A stretch of 64,000 nt of DNA from Chloroflexota bacterium (GTDB lineage: Bacteria; Chloroflexota; UBA11872), in the NCBI GenBank assembly GCA_022824495.1, contig JAJDZU010000012.1, forward strand, positions 1-64,000. Reading direction: 5' to 3'. The notes beneath the pieces were generated by a model that ran no database searches, had not been told where the DNA came from, and worked only from the letters and a program-made list of their open reading frames with translations. Position 1 is the stretch's first letter. The number at the start of each line of letters is the position of its first letter. Position numbers and translations under genes: made by a program. Shown piece after piece: positions 3,918 to 16,328 of the stretch.

Positions 3918-5624
3918 ATGCCGACGGGATTCCGAGTGTTTGTGGCGGCTTTGATGGTTGGCGTGCTGGGTTTGGCGGCGTGTGGCGAGTTTCCGTTTGG
4001 CGGGGAGAGCGAGGAGCGGTCGATGGCCGCGCCCGCGATGGCAATGGCCCCGGAGGGGCCGGCGGCGATGGCTGTGCCGGAGAGCGATCGCATGTCGCGC
4101 GAAACGGCCACGGCGATGGGGATGGCGGCGGAGCGGGCGGTGGTTCGGGTTGCCGAGGCTCCGGCCGCGGCGGCGCCGACCGTGGGCAAGGTGCAGGTCG
4201 AGTCGGAGAGCCAGGAGTCCAGTGTTCAGGCATCGGCGACTGTGCGACGGGTGATTCGCGACGCAACGATCGGGATCGTGGTGGGGGACATCGCGGAGGC
4301 GGTGCGGCGGTTGCAGGCACTGGTTGACGGGATTCCCGGGGCGTTTGTGGCGTCGGCGGATGTTCGGGATGACGATCCGCGGTCGATCAGCACTGTGACA
4401 TTGCGGGCGCCGGTGGAGCGGTTTGACGAGGTTCGAGGACTGGTGCGCGAGCAGGGCAGCGAGTTGGTGTTCGAGGACGTGGGTGGTCGCGACGTGACGG
4501 CGGAGTTCACGGACCTGGAGGCGCGGCTGCGGACGGCAGAGGCGACGGAGCGGCAACTGCTGGACATCCTGGCAACGGCCCAGACGGTGAGCGACACGCT
4601 GGAGGTGCAGCGGGAGTTGCTGGAGGTGCGGTCGCGGATCGAGGTGCTGCAGGGGCAGTTGAACCTGCTGGCGAATCAGACGGACCTGGCGACGATCACG
4701 GTGCGCCTGCACCCGGCGCCGGACCTGCGGATCGAGCGGCTGTCGCCCGAGGGGTACGTGATGCACGGCAGCACGGAGATGCCGATCACGATCGCCAATC
4801 ACGGCACGGTGGACCTGCGCGACGTGGTGGTGCGGGACCAGTTGGCGCCGGGGATGGTGTTTGAGTGGGCGTCGTCGCCGGGGGTGTACGAGGCGGCGAC
4901 GCATAGCGTGGTCTGGGAGATCGACCGGGTGGGCGCGAACACCTCGCAGGACGTGTGGTCGCGGGTGCGGCTGGAGGGCGACGGGTCGCCGATGCAGGTG
5001 ACGGCGACGATTTCGGCCAGCGGAGTCGTGCGCGAACCGGATGAGGACCGGGCGGAGGCGACGCTGCCGTTCTTCGTGGACCTGAGCGTGTTCAAGGAGG
5101 GCGAGGCGTCGGCGCCGGTGGGGCGGGACGTGAGCTACTACATCAACTTCCACAATCGCGGGAACGGGGACGCGCGGGAGGTTCGGCTGACGGAGCGTCT
5201 GCCGGAGGGCATGACGTTCGTGCGCGCGGAGGGCGGCGGACGCTACGACGAGGGCTCGCGGACGGTGGTGTGGGAGTTTCCGCGCATGGCGCCGGACTCG
5301 GGGCAGGGCGTGTTCTACGAGGCGCGGGTGGAGCGAAGCGAGGGGCGGTTCCAGACCGAGACCGCTATCGAGTTCGCGGGTGAGGATCGGGCCGAGGTGG
5401 ACAACCGGGTGGTGACGTTCCTGACGGCGCTGCCGGAAGACGTGGCGGACCGGGAGGTCTTTGGTCCGGGGTCGACGGCGCGAGACGCGGTGGGCCTGCT
5501 GCTGGACGTGCTGCGGTTCCTGGCGAATGCGGCGATCGTGGTGGTGATCGTGGCGGGGCCGTTTGCGGTGGTTGGCGGGTCGATCTGGTGGGGAATCAGG
5601 ACGATCAAGCGCCGCCGGGGGTGA
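3918..5624 (+). CDS. DUF4349 lipoprotein with DUF11 repeats and C-terminal membrane anchor
   Basis: The N-terminus is a lipoprotein signal (hydrophobic stretch ending LGLAACG, so Cys becomes the lipidated residue). A low-complexity Ala/Met segment follows, then a DUF4349 domain (about residues 110-270) with the typical coiled-coil stretch ending in a TITVRL strand, then two DUF11-like beta repeats (about 275-510), and a C-terminal transmembrane helix with a basic tail (about 530-565). It is probably an exported, membrane-anchored surface protein; its role is unknown. ATG 3918 is preferred over GTG 3915 because AGGAG lies at 3907-3911 upstream. The next frame is a partial copy of this gene. 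Confidence 0.85.
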   Translation: MPTGFRVFVAALMVGVLGLAACGEFPFGGESEERSMAAPAMAMAPEGPAAMAVPESDRMSRETATAMGMAAERAVVRVAEAPAAAAPTVGKVQVESESQESSVQASATVRRVIRDATIGIVVGDIAEAVRRLQALVDGIPGAFVASADVRDDDPRSISTVTLRAPVERFDEVRGLVREQGSELVFEDVGGRDVTAEFTDLEARLRTAEATERQLLDILATAQTVSDTLEVQRELLEVRSRIEVLQGQLNLLANQTDLATITVRLHPAPDLRIERLSPEGYVMHGSTEMPITIANHGTVDLRDVVVRDQLAPGMVFEWASSPGVYEAATHSVVWEIDRVGANTSQDVWSRVRLEGDGSPMQVTATISASGVVREPDEDRAEATLPFFVDLSVFKEGEASAPVGRDVSYYINFHNRGNGDAREVRLTERLPEGMTFVRAEGGGRYDEGSRTVVWEFPRMAPDSGQGVFYEARVERSEGRFQTETAIEFAGEDRAEVDNRVVTFLTALPEDVADREVFGPGSTARDAVGLLLDVLRFLANAAIVVVIVAGPFAVVGGSIWWGIRTIKRRRG

Positions 5625-6768
5625 GCAGGGCGCCGACGCGCAGGCTACCGAGCAGCAGCTGCTGGAGATCATGGCGACGTCCAGGACCGTGAAAGACACA
5701 CTGGACGTGCAGCGCGAAGTTGCCCAGGTGCGTGAACAGATCGAGACGTTCCAGGGACAGCTCAACGTGCTGGCGGACCAGGCGGCGCTGTCAACCGTCA
5801 CGGTCAATCTGCATCCGATACCGGACCTTCGAGTGGAACGGCGGGCGCCCGACCAGTACTCCATGCACGACTCGGTCGAGTTTCCGATCAGCGTGATCAA
5901 TGACGGGACGGTGGAACTCCGGAACGTGACCGTGCGCGATCAGCTTGACCCTGGTCTTGTGTTCCAGAACGCGACGAAGCCGGGGCAGTACGACCAGTCC
6001 ACGCATAGCGTGGTCTGGACGATCGACCGAATGGCGCCGGGTCAGTCGCTGGAACTTCGCACGCGCGTTCGCCTTGAGGGTGACGGCCAGGCGATGCGAC
6101 TGAGCGCCGAGGCGAGCACGGACAGCGATGTTCGCAACGCGGAACAGGACCAGGCCGGCGTCACCTTGCCGTTCTTCGTGGACCTGAGTCTCCAGCAGGA
6201 CCCAGACCTTGAGATTGAGATCGATCAAGAGTTGACGATGGTGCTGAATTACTCGAATCGAGGTAACGGGGACGCACGCGACGTACGCCTGGTCGAGCGG
6301 CTTCCCGCCGGCATGACGTTCATGCGCGCGAATCGGGGCGGGCGACTTGACGCCGACCGGAACGAGATCGTCTGGGAGTTTCCCGAGCTCTCGCCCGGCG
6401 CCAGCGGCAGCGTGAGTTACGTGGTCCGGCTGGATGCCGATACCGGACGACAATGGCTCGCAACGTCCATCGAGTCCACGGAGAGCGACCGTGCGCGCGT
6501 GGACAACCGACGCGTGACGTTTATCACCGCGATTCCCAAGGGCGAAGACGGAGAGTTCGTCGCGAGTGAGAGCGACGACTGGGATCCCGGTGAGACGGTT
6601 GACAATTCGGTTGAGGTCTTGACGCGGGTTGGGCAGTGGACGGCCAACGCGGCCATTGTCATAGGGATCATCGTTGCCCCAATCACGGCCGTTCTCGGCG
6701 CGGTGGGGCTTGGCGCGCTGGGCGTGCACCGCACAGTGATCCGGCGAATCAGGCGGCGTATGCCGTAG
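5563..6768 (+). CDS. 5'-truncated tandem paralogue of the DUF4349/DUF11 protein
   Basis: From about 5637 this frame aligns with the second half of the preceding lipoprotein: the ATE-QLLEI-AT...DTL-VQRE helix, the TVTVNLHP strand, both DUF11 repeats and the C-terminal transmembrane segment. The signal peptide, lipobox and first half of DUF4349 are missing, and the homology begins 13 bp after the stop of the upstream copy. The only in-frame start is GTG 5563, inside the upstream gene, and the residues it adds match nothing. The frame is otherwise intact, so the loss is recent or the product is made by reinitiation. Without a signal it is unlikely to be exported like its neighbour; it may be a pseudogene. 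Confidence 0.7.
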   Translation: MRWLAGRSGGESGRSSAAGGEQGADAQATEQQLLEIMATSRTVKDTLDVQREVAQVREQIETFQGQLNVLADQAALSTVTVNLHPIPDLRVERRAPDQYSMHDSVEFPISVINDGTVELRNVTVRDQLDPGLVFQNATKPGQYDQSTHSVVWTIDRMAPGQSLELRTRVRLEGDGQAMRLSAEASTDSDVRNAEQDQAGVTLPFFVDLSLQQDPDLEIEIDQELTMVLNYSNRGNGDARDVRLVERLPAGMTFMRANRGGRLDADRNEIVWEFPELSPGASGSVSYVVRLDADTGRQWLATSIESTESDRARVDNRRVTFITAIPKGEDGEFVASESDDWDPGETVDNSVEVLTRVGQWTANAAIVIGIIVAPITAVLGAVGLGALGVHRTVIRRIRRRMP

Positions 6769-9188: not shown

Positions 9189-9917
9189 GTGCAGGACTCT
9201 GATCCCAACGCCCAGTTCATCGACGCGTTCGTGGTTCCCACGGACACCGGCAGCGCGGTGCTGATCGACACTGACTTTCGGCGGCTCGATGCCGACGCGG
9301 GGCCGTTTCAGATTGCGCTGTATAGCCGACTGCCGCTCTCCATGGGCGAGTTGGCCGTTATTCGGGCTCGGGTGGAGGCCGATCTCTTTGCCCACGCGGT
9401 GCGCACGGCCGCGGAGGGAAGGCGATGGGTGCTGGCGCTCCTGACGGGGGTGATTGAACTCGGTGTGCTCGGGGTGCTGCTGGCGTTTCTATTTCTCAAC
9501 CGGGAGCCGGTGCACGCGGTCGTGGTCTGGGCGGCGCCGCTGGGATTCCTTCCGGGCCTGGCGTATGTCTGGCGCACGGTCGCGGGCCGTCAGGCCGGGG
9601 CGCGCGCCCGTTCGACGCTTGAACTTGGTGAGTTGCTGCCGAACACGGCCGTCGGACGTGACGGCGACTCGCTGGCACGGCTGCGCGATCTCTGGCGGAT
9701 TGCCGAACAGCCTGATGAGCCACGCGACCTGATGCGCCTGGAGCGAGTCGCTCGAGAGCGAGTGCAATGGCCGGCGGCCGCGCGTTTTTATCGCGAGCTG
9801 GCCAACGCGCCGAGTACGACGGCGCCGCGTGGTCGGCTGTCCTGGCCGCGGGCGTTGGCGCGGCTCCGACGAGAGCGGCCGCATCCCCTCACGCACCTTA
9901 CGGCGCGCTCGCGATGA
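9189..9917 (+). CDS. membrane protein of unknown function, cassette gene 1
   Basis: I do not recognise this family. The 242-aa product has a soluble N-terminal part of about 75 residues, two adjacent transmembrane helices (about 77-100 and 107-126), and a cytosolic Arg-rich C-terminal part. Translation starts at GTG 9189. The stop overlaps the next start in the sequence ATGA (9914-9917), which indicates translational coupling. It is the first of four tightly packed genes (9189-13055), all with membrane segments or hydrophobic stretches and without recognised enzymes. Confidence 0.7.
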
Positions 9918-10615
9918 TGAATCTGGCCTGCTGGGCCGTGCCAATTCGCGACGGCTACGTGCTTCGCGCCGACCGGTCCACGGCAACAATCCTGCGAGCG
10001 GCGCCTGCCCGCAGCCCGCAGTTCTGGGGCTGGCGTATTGCCCTCATACAGCCGCAGAGCCAGCAATTCTCAGCGCCGCTCGCGGCGCGTGCCGCTGTGC
10101 TGGCGCTGGACTATGTGCGCCTGGCGGGCGGCGCCGCGCCGACGGATGAGTCGCCGCGCCGCCGTCGAGCCGCGATCTGGATGGAAGTCGCGCTGGGGCT
10201 GGCGCTGATCGTTGCGTCCGGTGGTCACTGGGTGCCGGCGCTGGCCGGGGCGTGGCTAGTGACGGGACGCCGCTGGGTGCGCTCGTTCCTGCAAATCGAT
10301 GCACAGGTGCCCAGCGCGCCGGCCGCGCCTGCCCAATCACCCCTCGTCAGTTCCGAGGCTCACGCCGGGCTTGCCCAAATCGAGCGGTCGATGCGTGACG
10401 TGGAAGACGACGCGGCGGCATATGCCCTGGGAGCGGTCCAGGCGCGGGGCGAAGGGTTGGACGAAGCGGCGGAGATCTATGAGGCGCTGTCGAGCGGAAC
10501 GCATCCCGCGATGCTGCCGCCGCACGTCGGATTCTGGGTCGCGAACGAGACGATGCACGACCCGTGGCGGTTGGCGTTGCCAGCGCCGGCCGCCGCTACG
10601 GACGACGCGACGTGA
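9914..10615 (+). CDS. membrane protein of unknown function, cassette gene 2
   Basis: The family is not recognised. The start ATG 9914 (or the adjacent ATG 9917) overlaps the stop of gene 1 by 4 bp; a longer open frame from 9767 only overlaps gene 1 and is rejected. The 233-aa product has an N-terminal soluble part, one or two hydrophobic segments near residues 93-125, and a C-terminal helical stretch with an AAAYALGAVQARGEG-DEAAEIYEAL pattern resembling a Sel1/TPR-like helical hairpin. It lies 25 bp from gene 3 in an apparent operon. Confidence 0.65.
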   Translation: MMNLACWAVPIRDGYVLRADRSTATILRAAPARSPQFWGWRIALIQPQSQQFSAPLAARAAVLALDYVRLAGGAAPTDESPRRRRAAIWMEVALGLALIVASGGHWVPALAGAWLVTGRRWVRSFLQIDAQVPSAPAAPAQSPLVSSEAHAGLAQIERSMRDVEDDAAAYALGAVQARGEGLDEAAEIYEALSSGTHPAMLPPHVGFWVANETMHDPWRLALPAPAAATDDAT

Positions 10616-10640
10616 CCGCCCGCACCGAGGTGACCGTCAG

Positions 10641-11549
10641 ATGATTGCCGGCAGTGTGCGCGTTGATATTCCGATCGACGAATTGCGCTACCGGCGGTTG
10701 CTGCGATCGGCGGAGTGGCGGGACGAGACGGCAAAGCTGGCTGGGGTGTATGGCGAGCGTGTGATCTACGAAGGCCCAATTGCAGGCTTGCGTGAAGGGC
10801 GAGTGGTGGAGTTGACGGCCGGGGATTCGGCGGCCGACGTTCGCATCGCGATCGACGCCGTGCCGAACACGCTCACGATGCCGGTGCTGGCCGCCGGCCG
10901 GGCCGTGGCTCGGGCACTTGGAACGCCGGCGAGCGACCGACAGTCGCTGCTCTCGCGGGTGGCGCTGTTGCTTTACCTGGTAGAGCCTGCCGCGGATGTC
11001 CAGGTTCCGCGTCCAGAGCAACCGGCGTTTGGTTTGGCTGCCGCTCTGCGGCTGCTGGCCTCGCCGATCCGGCCGCACATCTGGACGTCGCTGCGCACCT
11101 CATTAGAGGTTTTCGAGCCCTCGCTTGTGCTGGACCTGCGCGACGGCGGAACGGCCATCAGCGCCACGGAAGTCGCCCTTATCGTGCACGCTGCGGGCCA
11201 GCAAACGGACCTGGCGTGGTTTGACGAGCGGCGCGCACGAATTGGCGTGGACGAGGGCGAGCGCGTTTCGGACGAAATCCGCCGGCGCGGAGTCAGCCTG
11301 ATGGAGCCAGACGTCCACGACCTGCACGTCGCCGGCGTGCTTCCGATAGCTCCGGGTGTAATGGCCACGGCCCCGGGTCAACCTTCGGATCGGACGCTGG
11401 CCGCCTGGTCGGCGCATACCACCGGGGCCATCGGCGTTTCGGCTCTGGCCGTAGGTCGGATTGGAAGCCAGCGAGCGGCAGCCCTGGCGGCGGCCGCCGG
11501 CGCCGCGTTCATTGCGGGGCCGGCCGCGGTGGCACCCGAGGGCGTGTAG
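10641..11549 (+). CDS. unrecognised 302-aa protein, cassette gene 3
   Basis: No known domain is visible. The product begins MIAGSVRVDIPIDEL and has no N-terminal signal. The middle has alternating strands and helices, including VLDLRDGGTAIS, and the end is Ala/Gly-rich and hydrophobic (from about residue 260), possibly one membrane helix. The start ATG 10641 follows gene 2 by 25 bp, and the TAG stop (11547-11549) abuts the ATG of gene 4 at 11550. Its function should be sought with genes 1, 2 and 4. Confidence 0.6.
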   Translation: MIAGSVRVDIPIDELRYRRLLRSAEWRDETAKLAGVYGERVIYEGPIAGLREGRVVELTAGDSAADVRIAIDAVPNTLTMPVLAAGRAVARALGTPASDRQSLLSRVALLLYLVEPAADVQVPRPEQPAFGLAAALRLLASPIRPHIWTSLRTSLEVFEPSLVLDLRDGGTAISATEVALIVHAAGQQTDLAWFDERRARIGVDEGERVSDEIRRRGVSLMEPDVHDLHVAGVLPIAPGVMATAPGQPSDRTLAAWSAHTTGAIGVSALAVGRIGSQRAAALAAAAGAAFIAGPAAVAPEGV

Positions 11550-13055
11550 ATGCGCACCAACCCGTCGTCCGCAGGCAGCGTGCCCGACCGGCGGGAGGAT
11601 CCCGCGGCAATCCCCGTGGAATACGTGCCGATTCCGGCGGGACCGAACGGTTCGACGCTGATCGCGCATGACCGGCACCGGCTCGTACAGGTTGTCGCGC
11701 GGGCGCTGATTCCCGCACGAACGCTTCGAGTGGGATCGCTCCCGCATGACAGCGACGCTGTGCCGAGGATCGAGGCCAAGGCCGTGAAACGCCTACGTCG
11801 CCTACGTCGCCATGCGCGTGCCCGGCAGTGGGCTCAATTGGTCGCTTCGCTTGGACTGCCGTTCCTGGTGGCGTCGCTGTTGGGGCTGGTATCCGTGCCA
11901 ATTGGTTATGTTCCCGCCATAGGTGAGGCCGTAGCGAACTTCATCGGCAGCTCCGGTGGGTCGTTGGGCGGTCTACCGCTGGCGGCGGTGATCTCGCTGC
12001 TGCCGTCCGTCTGGCTATTCCGCCGCGCACGCCGCCAGGTGGCGGCGCGTCCGGCGGCCCGAGGTACCGAAAAGACCCTGCAGGTGGCCGAGCTCGCGGT
12101 CCGGGAAGACGCGAGCCAGTTTCTGACAGCCGCGGACGCTCTGCTGGCGGAGATTGGGAGCCTGATGAGCGGGCGGTCACGTATCGACGGTCAACGCGCG
12201 CTGCGCCTGGCGACGCGATTCGACCGGCTCACGCGATTGGCGGCCCACTACCGCGTGTCCGCGGTTCAAGCGTTTGCGGCCGACATGGCCGCGCAGTTTC
12301 GCCACGCCGGCCGACCGCCGCGCCGGTTGATTCCCGGGTTGTATGCCAAGCGGAATTCCGCGCACGTATCCACGATGGTCTCGCCCTACGACCCCGCGAC
12401 AATGTCACGGGCACCGACGTTGGTAACCGTTCCGGCGATTTTCCTGGTGGGCGCGCTCGCAGCGATCACGTCGTTTCTGGCCGCCGGCGTCTTTCGGTTG
12501 AGCGCCGACGACGCGCTGGTGCTGCTTCAAAACGAGGCGGTCGTGTTTCCGAGCAGCGCCGGCGTGTTTTCCCTGGGCCAGGGGTTCGACCAACCGAGCG
12601 ATTCCGGCGCCGGCACGCTGAGCGTGGTGGAGGGGCCAGGCTTGTTCTGGAGCTGGCCGCAGCCCGTAACGGAGCGCCGCCTCATCAATCTGACCGACCG
12701 CGAAGCGCCCGTGACGCTGATTCTTCCGACAGAGGCGGAGCCCGAGGATCTCATCGTGCAGTTTCAGTACGACGTGACCGACCTGACAGCGTTTGTGAGG
12801 CTTGGCGTGCCGGAATTTGCGGACCAGTTTATTGCGGTCATCCTGCAAGAGGGACTGACGCAGTTGCTCGGATCGTGGCGGGAATCCCTGGTCGCCGAAT
12901 TCGAAGGCAACAGCGCGAGGGTGAATGAGGAGTTGCAGTCTGGCATGGGTCAGTTCCTCGGTGACTTTGTTGATATTGCGAACCAGAACGAACGTCTGAC
13001 GGGCCTGGGCATCATTCTGAAGCCTCAGCCGAACTTCAACATTCAGCGAACCTGA
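11550..13055 (+). CDS. membrane protein with C-terminal SPFH/HflK-like region, cassette gene 4
   Basis: The 501-aa product has transmembrane segments at about 97-117, 143-157 and 291-313, with a basic cytosolic part between. Residues about 315-465 look like the start of an SPFH (band 7/HflK) domain: a GPGLFWSWPQPV segment like the PGLHW-xPxPI of HflK, then beta strands and VQFQYDVTDL. The long C-terminal coiled coil of HflK is absent. SPFH proteins form membrane microdomain scaffolds; HflK controls FtsH. The SPFH assignment is inference from motif resemblance. It is the last gene of the cassette, followed by the rodZ-like gene 41 bp on. Confidence 0.6.
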   Translation: MRTNPSSAGSVPDRREDPAAIPVEYVPIPAGPNGSTLIAHDRHRLVQVVARALIPARTLRVGSLPHDSDAVPRIEAKAVKRLRRLRRHARARQWAQLVASLGLPFLVASLLGLVSVPIGYVPAIGEAVANFIGSSGGSLGGLPLAAVISLLPSVWLFRRARRQVAARPAARGTEKTLQVAELAVREDASQFLTAADALLAEIGSLMSGRSRIDGQRALRLATRFDRLTRLAAHYRVSAVQAFAADMAAQFRHAGRPPRRLIPGLYAKRNSAHVSTMVSPYDPATMSRAPTLVTVPAIFLVGALAAITSFLAAGVFRLSADDALVLLQNEAVVFPSSAGVFSLGQGFDQPSDSGAGTLSVVEGPGLFWSWPQPVTERRLINLTDREAPVTLILPTEAEPEDLIVQFQYDVTDLTAFVRLGVPEFADQFIAVILQEGLTQLLGSWRESLVAEFEGNSARVNEELQSGMGQFLGDFVDIANQNERLTGLGIILKPQPNFNIQRT

Positions 13056-13096: not shown

Positions 13097-13771
13097 ATGG
13101 CGACGATGGGTGAAATGCTGCGCGCGGCGCGGAGCCAGGCCGGGTTGAGCCTTGAAGCCGTGTCGAGCGCGACTCGGATTCCTCGACATAACCTGATTGC
13201 CCTGGAGTCCGACGACTTTGACGTGTTGCCGGCGGAGCCGTTTACGCGGGGGCTGATTCGGGTTTATGCGCGCGCCCTGGCTGTGCCCGAAGAGCCGGTG
13301 CTGAATGCTTACGCCGCGGCGTTGAGTTCACGACGCCTTGCCGCCGCCGAGCCCGACCGAGCCTTGCGCCGCCGCCAGGGGCGCTTGATGGCCGGGGTGA
13401 CGGCCGCCGCGGCCGTAATCGCAGTCCTGGTGCTGCTGTTTGCGCGGTCGGGCGGACTTCCCGCCCCCTCGGCTTCGGAGTCTCGAACCTCCGCCCCCGA
13501 ACCAGCGGGCATCGGGCTGCGAGCAGAGAGCAAGCTCGAGCTGGTCGCCGTGCGTCCAACCGCCATCGAGGTCGTCGTGGATGGCCAGTCGGTGTTCGAA
13601 GGCGAGCTCGTTACGGGGTCCAGCCAGACGTATTCGCCGCAGCGGGAGATTGCGGTGCGAGCCGAAGAGCCCGACGCGATTGAGGTGCGGATTGATGGCG
13701 CTTCGATCGGATTCCTTGGTCCGCCCGGCGGATCGTATCAGCGGACCTGGCAGGTTGACGCCGGTGGCTGA
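13097..13771 (+). CDS. RodZ-like HTH membrane protein
   Basis: The protein has an N-terminal Xre-type helix-turn-helix (about residues 5-60, with LRAARSQAGLSLEAVS and LEAD-like ESDDFDVLPAEPFTRGLIR), one transmembrane helix (about 102-120), and an extracytoplasmic beta domain of the DUF4115 type (from about 150). This is the RodZ layout; RodZ anchors the MreB cytoskeleton and shapes the cell. In genomes where it precedes pgsA it is often annotated as a helix-turn-helix domain protein. Its stop overlaps the GTG of pgsA by 8 bp, so the two are translated together. Confidence 0.8.
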   Translation: MATMGEMLRAARSQAGLSLEAVSSATRIPRHNLIALESDDFDVLPAEPFTRGLIRVYARALAVPEEPVLNAYAAALSSRRLAAAEPDRALRRRQGRLMAGVTAAAAVIAVLVLLFARSGGLPAPSASESRTSAPEPAGIGLRAESKLELVAVRPTAIEVVVDGQSVFEGELVTGSSQTYSPQREIAVRAEEPDAIEVRIDGASIGFLGPPGGSYQRTWQVDAGG

Positions 13772-15621: not shown

Positions 15622-15906
15622 GTGAAATTGGAGCACTCGACGGCCGAGCACACTTGGACTGTAGCTGAGGCTAAGGCGCGTTTGTCTGAGGTTCTGCGAC
15701 TTTCCGAGGAGGAGGGACCGCAGCGAATTGGGCGGCGCAAGTCGTTCGTTGTGGTTCCCGCCGAAACCTGGGAAGCGCATGTCCCGCCGCGTAAGCCGCT
15801 GGGGCAATGGTTGATCGAAAACATGCCGCGTGGTGTGAACCTTGAGATTCCCCACGACCGATCCTCCCAAAGGGAGATTCCTTTCCTTGACGAGGCGGAC
15901 GATTGA
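15622..15906 (+). CDS. Phd/YefM-type antitoxin
   Basis: The 94-aa product has the short N-terminal DNA-binding domain of the Phd/YefM family: W-T-V-A-E-A-K-A-R-L-S-E-V followed by a hydrophobic strand SFVVVPAETW. The C-terminal tail is the flexible toxin-binding part. A GGGAGG sits at 15614-15619, only 2 nt before GTG 15622 but 8 nt before TTG 15628, so TTG 15628 may be the true start. Its stop overlaps the toxin start in TTGA (15903-15906). Confidence 0.85.
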   Translation: MKLEHSTAEHTWTVAEAKARLSEVLRLSEEEGPQRIGRRKSFVVVPAETWEAHVPPRKPLGQWLIENMPRGVNLEIPHDRSSQREIPFLDEADD

Positions 15907-16328
15907 GTGGATTTCTCCTGGACACCAACGTCGTCTCGGAGTTGACGCGCGACGCTCCGCATCCCGGGGTAATCAAGTTTCTGGCCGAGCATGACGACCT
16001 TTGGCTGTCGTCGATCGTGATCCATGAATTGGAGTACGGGTTACAACTACTCCCCCACGGGAGGCGTCGCAATCGAATGCACGCGATCCAGGCGAGCATC
16101 ATCTCGGGCTATAGCAACCGCATTCTGGCCTTGGAACGGCGAGGGGCGGAGTGGGCAGCTCAATTTCGAGCCCGTGCGCGCCGAACTGGACGCGCCATTG
16201 ACGTAGGTGATGCGCTCATGGCCGGAATTGCGCGCAGCAAAACCTTGGCGATCGCAACGCGCAACGTCGCCGACTTTGAGCACCTGGGCATCGAAGTCAC
16301 CAACCCCTGGAGTTCGGACGCACCCTGA
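15903..16328 (+). CDS. PIN-domain ribonuclease toxin, VapC/FitB-like
   Basis: The 141-aa product starts with the PIN motif FLLDTNVVSE, has the second acidic residue in HELEYG, and DVGDALMAGIA with the third and fourth acidic positions, so the metal site looks intact. VapC toxins cleave tRNA or rRNA, and the antitoxin encoded just upstream neutralises them. The TTG 15903 start overlaps the antitoxin stop by 4 bp. Confidence 0.88.
   Translation: MSGFLLDTNVVSELTRDAPHPGVIKFLAEHDDLWLSSIVIHELEYGLQLLPHGRRRNRMHAIQASIISGYSNRILALERRGAEWAAQFRARARRTGRAIDVGDALMAGIARSKTLAIATRNVADFEHLGIEVTNPWSSDAP

Follow-up and report, generated by a model that had tools for sequence, protein, structure and literature searches.

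A four-gene membrane cassette of a Chloroflexota class that joins a predicted SPFH domain, related membrane modules and a putative M14-fold pseudo-peptidase

We here describe a cassette of four genes, called O1 to O4, at positions 9189 to 13055 of a 64 000-nucleotide stretch of DNA from a Chloroflexota bacterium (GenBank assembly GCA_022824495.1, contig JAJDZU010000012.1, positions 1 to 64 000 of the forward strand; henceforth the window). The cassette combines membrane modules found in three of its products, a predicted SPFH domain fused to one of these modules in O4, and a predicted M14-like fold in O3, and in this anatomy we have high confidence. The overall best explanation, which we put forward tentatively and at a little short of even chances, is that the cassette encodes a lineage-specific SPFH membrane scaffold having three paralogous membrane subunits and a cytosolic pseudo-peptidase adaptor. 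The genes and domains concerned are as follows.

O1, 9189..9917, plus strand: GTG start, 242 amino acids, membrane protein without a known family
O2, 9914..10615, plus strand: 233 amino acids, membrane protein of O1-like layout, in ATGA overlap with O1
O3, 10641..11549, plus strand: 302 amino acids, predicted soluble, predicted M14 metallocarboxypeptidase fold without a conserved zinc ligand
O4, 11550..13055, plus strand: 501 amino acids, O1/O2-like membrane module, third transmembrane helix and predicted C-terminal SPFH1+SPFH2 domain
O4 N-terminal module, 11607..12413, plus strand: residues ~20–288, very probably homologous to O1 and O2 (hhalign)
O4 third transmembrane segment, 12438..12494, plus strand: residues 297–315 by hydropathy, helix 290–312 in the model
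O4 SPFH1+SPFH2 domain, 12486..13052, plus strand: residues 313–501 by Foldseek and VIA, ending without a coiled coil
rodZ-like gene, 13097..13771, plus strand: 41 bp 3' of O4, with Pfam HTH_25 and RodZ_C, the conserved neighbour of O4 outside the four-gene set

RESULTS

Locus and gene layout

A first-pass annotation, made from the letters of this DNA, had described four tightly coupled genes, and the open reading frames were indeed found in that arrangement, with a 4-base ATGA overlap between O1 and O2, a 25-bp gap between O2 and O3, and the stop codon of O3 abutting the start of O4. The mnmG gene lies upstream of O1 on the opposite strand, with the cassette transcribed away from it; as annotated, the cassette separates mnmG from the rodZ-like gene. 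The ratio of nonsynonymous to synonymous substitution rates (dN/dS) was 0.12–0.25 in 16 gene-by-relative comparisons (four genes in each of four close relatives), and because such values denote purifying selection we regard O1 to O4 as real and selected genes. Hydropathy gave three hydrophobic segments in O4, two in O1 and one merged segment in O2, which we read as a hairpin; the C-terminal hydrophobic stretch of O3 forms the final helix of a globular fold in its structure model. Three of the four products are therefore taken to be membrane proteins and O3 is predicted to be soluble, which agrees with the earlier description of most products as membrane proteins and of the last as having three transmembrane segments.

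Scans of the four proteins against Pfam, NCBIfam and PADLOC gave no family except for a marginal Band_7 match in O4. When the aligned homologues of O1, O2 and O3 were run against Pfam, only scattered weak matches resulted, and no credible match to a PDB sequence came from the profiles of O4, O3 or O1. We discounted a match to Tweety, seen in one of 18 O1 homologues (expectation value, E, 0.0022), as well as matches to DUF4229 (O4, E 0.0019) and DUF202 (O3, E 0.093), which fell under the cut-offs.

Membrane modules of O1, O2 and O4

O1 is predicted to consist of a cytosolic N-terminal domain, two transmembrane segments (approximately residues 81–128) and a cytosolic helical C-terminal domain. 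Upon profile comparison by hhalign, O1 aligned co-linearly with O2 over 181 columns (score 45.6, probability 83%) and with the N-terminal half of O4 over 197 columns (score 52.3, probability 92%), and O2 aligned with the N-terminal half of O4 over 44 C-terminal columns (score 39.6, probability 53%). As controls, the best of 30 column shuffles for each pair scored 16.7 (O1/O2), 15.0 (O1/O4) and 16.6 (O2/O4), reversed profiles scored 11.3, 20.4 and 18.8 in the same order, and O3 as well as the SPFH part of O4 gave noise against O1 and O2. Judged by these alignments, O1, O2 and the N-terminal half of O4 very probably belong to one new paralogous family having two transmembrane segments with cytosolic domains, a claim that we do not put more firmly because the hhalign probabilities are moderate.

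O4 as a divergent SPFH protein

The AlphaFold2 model of O4, built with 17 sequences, had a mean predicted local distance difference test score (pLDDT) of 78.2 and a whole-protein predicted template modelling score (pTM) of 0.58. It matched human prohibitin in Foldseek (E 6.3e-5), and by VIA residues 313–501 matched chains of flotillin, prohibitin, erlin, stomatin and HflK/C with Z-scores from 10.8 to 8.2, all SPFH matches falling within residues 288–501. The model thereby displays the tandem SPFH1 and SPFH2 fold, on which the first-pass annotation had staked its reading of the last protein, directly preceded by a membrane anchor (segment 297–315, helix 290–312 in the model). The vault protein and FliL, which share the small domain, came lower in the list of structure matches. 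Weak matches of the N-terminal half to helical bundles of the ferritin/Dps type (Z about 5) were rejected as common helix packing; a known fold may nevertheless be present in this half, for which no clear match appeared.

With regards to sequence, Pfam Band_7 was touched by 7 of 16 O4 homologues (best E 1.6e-4), and within the stretch GPGLFWSWPQPV residues G364, W367, P370, P372 and R376 were invariant among the 16. The O4 profile furthermore matched two HflK-like proteins of planctomycetes, one at E 1.1e-10 and one at E 1.6e-5, each encoded beside an HflC-like gene (HflK and HflC being named by eye) and not counted as a cassette member. The same profile gave no match in hmmsearch to any of the four classical SPFH proteins that its own genome encodes, and we therefore regard O4 as a distant SPFH member, assigned as such by its predicted fold, Band_7 and the planctomycete proteins. 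Of these four classical proteins, two are neighboured by NfeD-like genes, a third resembles prohibitin and the fourth flotillin (by eye), and since all of these are present in the same genome, O4 should be seen as an extra, divergent member and not as a replacement. As a separate observation, one planctomycete hflC-like/hflK-like pair (L066:9220-11163) is followed by a gene resembling, by eye, a metal-transporting P-type ATPase.

Classic members of the superfamily are described in a passage of one paper as having a predicted coiled coil after the SPFH domain, for oligomerisation (PMC2636767), and a passage of another names such segments CC1/CC2 (PMC12624060). No coiled coil was found after the SPFH domain of O4 in any of 20 homologues, all of which end 12–29 residues past G487, the last invariant glycine of the domain, and therefore have no room for the classical coiled coils. 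The charges flanking the helices, +6 before segment 1 and +6 after segment 2, suggest a topology in which the N-terminal half of O4 is cytosolic and the SPFH domain extracytoplasmic.

The closest comparison is with HflK/HflC (SPFH3), which occur with FtsH. O4 shares with these proteins a transmembrane helix ahead of SPFH1 and SPFH2, the predicted extracytoplasmic side and a PGxxWxWPxP-type loop, and it matched 7vhq_G by VIA with a Z-score of 10.3 over 147 residues. It differs in being a single gene without coiled coil or cap, having other gene partners and carrying added cytosolic domains with two further transmembrane helices; nor was a tandem hflK-hflC pair found, since each genome has a single O4 and none of O1 to O3 matched SPFH. 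The label HflK-like in the first-pass annotation thus suits the SPFH1 loop and the planctomycete matches, but O4 is not HflK, being single, lacking the coiled coil and having a large N-terminal half. The NfeD-stomatin and flotillin operons (SPFH1, SPFH2, SPFH5) are likewise conserved and combine an SPFH gene with genes for membrane partners, whereas the partners of O4 are probable paralogues of its own N-terminal half and a pseudo-M14 protein. Neither O1 to O3 nor rodZ had a Pfam match to NfeD, with the reservation, stated in a passage of PMC2636767, that divergent NfeD proteins can escape recognition.

O3 as a putative pseudo-carboxypeptidase

The model of O3 had a pLDDT of 81.7 and a pTM of 0.87. 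Its top Foldseek matches were M14 metallocarboxypeptidases (E 6.8e-8), and comparison with M14 by VIA gave a Z-score of 18.5 over 230 residues at a root-mean-square deviation of 3.0; the predicted fold, as found in 2qvp, 4b6z and carboxypeptidase A, spans nearly all of O3. The zinc of M14 enzymes is held by a His-x-x-Glu motif together with a His further along the chain; HGDE and DAH are present in four M14-family proteins from the same genomes. Among 17 O3 homologues spanning the class, by contrast, no alignment column held His in at least nine, and no Cys column reached nine either. An HxxE was present in six of the 17, at two or three differing positions, none of which is the loop that follows the first long strand and carries the motif in M14 (placed by eye on the model). 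Where the second zinc-binding His would lie, most members of the f1 and f2 groups have LRD or MRD, with LQD, FQD, LED, AQD or TQD elsewhere (by eye). The invariant residues were W26, G61, P160, D168, G239 and R278. Because a predicted M14 fold here comes without conserved zinc ligands, O3 is best read as a pseudo-peptidase with an M14 carboxypeptidase fold.

In the same genus (G000:C7, loci L068 and L094; also L089, L091, L092, L093 and L095), a gene for an M14-family peptidase lies tail to tail with an NfeD-stomatin pair. Within the stretches inspected, the stomatin gene was seen in six of seven such M14 loci, the seventh, L090, starting near a contig end. These loci constitute a second, independent SPFH-M14 neighbourhood.

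Distribution and gene order

The class was sampled with 41 genomes. Profile searches found O1 in 33 of these, O3 in the same 33 (using a wider profile; an earlier, narrow one gave 26) and O4 in 32, whereby presence and absence agreed in 41 of 41 genomes for O1 and O3, and in 40 for O4. The eight genomes without O1 and O3 were G021, all six of f4, and G040, which is 77% complete and also lacks a strong mnmG match; G039 (81% complete) has O1 and O3 with no O4 match. O2 was present in all of the 19 complete named loci and in most other loci inspected. The cassette was single copy. Outside the class, among 301 phylum genomes searched for O4 and 400 for O1 and O3 (both samples including class members), only weak fragments appeared, namely short ones in two genomes for O4 (E 1.5e-5 and 6.2e-4) and in two for O1 (E 4.3e-4 and 5.7e-4), none of which were counted as members, and O3 had no match outside the class in the 400.

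The conservation of gene order in relatives, upon which the first-pass annotation had made its proposal depend, was evident. O1-O2-O3-O4 were contiguous between mnmG and rodZ in 26 of the 33 genomes, comprising the 19 named loci, the window, five genomes read directly (G013, G019, G030, G034 and G037) and G017, for which contiguity was taken from the match coordinates of O1, O3 and O4 alone. Order and short spacings were repeated in all 19 complete named loci, one having a 160-bp gap between O2 and O3. In five genomes (G024, G026, G028, G032 and G036) the cassette was split, with O1-O2-O3 on the mnmG side, O3 being seen beside O1-O2 only as far as the contig allows, and O4 with rodZ and rimO elsewhere. 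In G024 both parts are on a single contig, separated by about 38 kb; in G036 a short contig holds O1-O2 without visible mnmG and the O3 match is on another contig. The G023 locus was broken by contig ends and G039 had O1-O2-O3 only. The cassette thus persists when divided into two loci. O4 adjoined rodZ in 23 of 24 loci examined, with the remaining locus stopping at O4 at a contig end.

In G021, which belongs to the same taxonomic order, mnmG and rodZ face each other with about 320 bp between the matches, and the genome has no O1, O3 or O4 match. This junction is an empty site, from which the cassette has been lost as a whole. A class-specific membrane assembly that has been kept vertically is the best explanation of the cassette. 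A search of the open PMC literature gave no paper describing such a cassette by title or abstract, and Chloroflexota together with SPFH gave none.

Other features of the window

Beside mnmG, at 5563-6768, the window encodes a protein with DUF4349 and DUF11 matches, and in several relatives a second, more distant DUF11 copy adjoins. Two overlapping small open reading frames at 15622-16328 resemble a Phd/YefM antitoxin and a PIN-domain (VapC-like) toxin, as named by eye from their translations. The segment 42001-48000 has a GC content of 0.557, against about 0.66 across most of the window, and is possibly acquired.

DISCUSSION

The first-pass annotation had suggested that the genes might encode a membrane microdomain or a proteostasis device. 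Function as a scaffold, which we regard as possible and hold only tentatively, would work as follows. Common descent of the membrane modules points to an assembly of O1, O2 and O4, which would be held together in the membrane by the transmembrane pairs. The SPFH domains would form oligomers, with the conserved aromatic loop dipping into the outer leaflet, and would gather and shape a patch of membrane from the outside. O3, with a fold that would be built to hold peptide C-termini but be unable to cut, may serve as a cytosolic adaptor that holds the assembly or a client peptide. The whole assembly would organise a patch of membrane, possibly one used by the cell-shape machinery of RodZ, whose gene lies alongside; this machinery is a candidate client because no neighbour of O4 is more constant than RodZ. 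A complete and hitherto undescribed machine, in which three paralogous subunits of two transmembrane helices each, one of them fused to a coiled-coil-free extracytoplasmic SPFH domain, would join a cytosolic pseudo-carboxypeptidase reading peptide C-termini and couple the SPFH platform to RodZ and MreB, we consider rather doubtful.

Several observations weigh against a scaffold of this kind. Without a coiled coil the usual SPFH ring or cage may not form, the whole-protein pTM of the O4 model is low, and the four classical SPFH proteins of the genome could supply scaffolding. For O3, hhalign did not rise above noise in comparisons with M14 proteins from the same genomes, and neither Pfam (no Peptidase_M14) nor PDB sequence searches gave an M14 match; as no sequence method detects the link, the M14 assignment is one of predicted fold. 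The co-occurrence of the four genes depends on few independent gains and losses. Finally, MreB was found in 41 of 41 class genomes, cassette-less ones included, which makes its co-occurrence uninformative on the RodZ link; with MreB present both with and without the cassette, that link is one of gene adjacency.

The main alternative to a scaffold, which we consider unlikely, is a regulator of membrane proteolysis similar to HflK/C, in which O4 would surround FtsH or another protease and O1 to O3 would gate its clients. The HflK-like loop in SPFH1, the match of the O4 profile to planctomycete proteins with HflC-like neighbours and a predicted topology like that of HflK/C all speak for this possibility, but the cassette has no protease gene, O4 lacks the coiled coil and the cap that close the HflK/C cage, and it is a single copy where HflK and HflC form a tandem pair. 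The cassette could likewise be a cell-shape accessory, in which O4 would work jointly with RodZ as part of the elongation machinery, as would fit an O4-rodZ adjacency that holds even where O1 to O3 have been relocated. Flotillins affect MreB movement (PMC7360373), reportedly in Bacillus, which also speaks for this reading. We also judge it unlikely, with MreB occurring without the cassette in the G021 and f4 genomes, the former of which also retains rodZ.

It is improbable that four unrelated housekeeping genes merely share a transcript by chance, with no common assembly. Co-location alone is no proof of interaction and the set sits within an old syntenic block, but three of the four products are probably paralogous (O4 by its N-terminal half), the presence of O1 and O3 coincides in every class genome and that of O4 in all but one, and the set survives relocation. 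It is highly improbable that O3 is a working enzyme with an altered metal site, making the cassette a membrane-tied peptidase or amidase; its M14 fold is strongly predicted and one acidic residue, D168, is invariant in 17 homologues close to where the second zinc ligand would be (by eye), but neither a His nor a Cys column reaches nine of the 17, and HxxE is present in six of them, never at the M14 location.

Scaffolds of the SPFH type are found across all domains of life, and little is known of what they hold together. In the scaffold proposed here, likely partners of an SPFH domain are written into the operon, because that domain is fused to one member of the membrane family and the others are encoded alongside. 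The novelty lies in three features, namely a pseudo-peptidase of predicted M14 fold, the probable paralogy of three membrane modules and an SPFH domain that lacks the coiled coil. Such a coiled-coil-free domain would test whether a coiled coil is required for SPFH assembly, and a pseudo-carboxypeptidase in a complex of this type would put the M14 fold to a new use.

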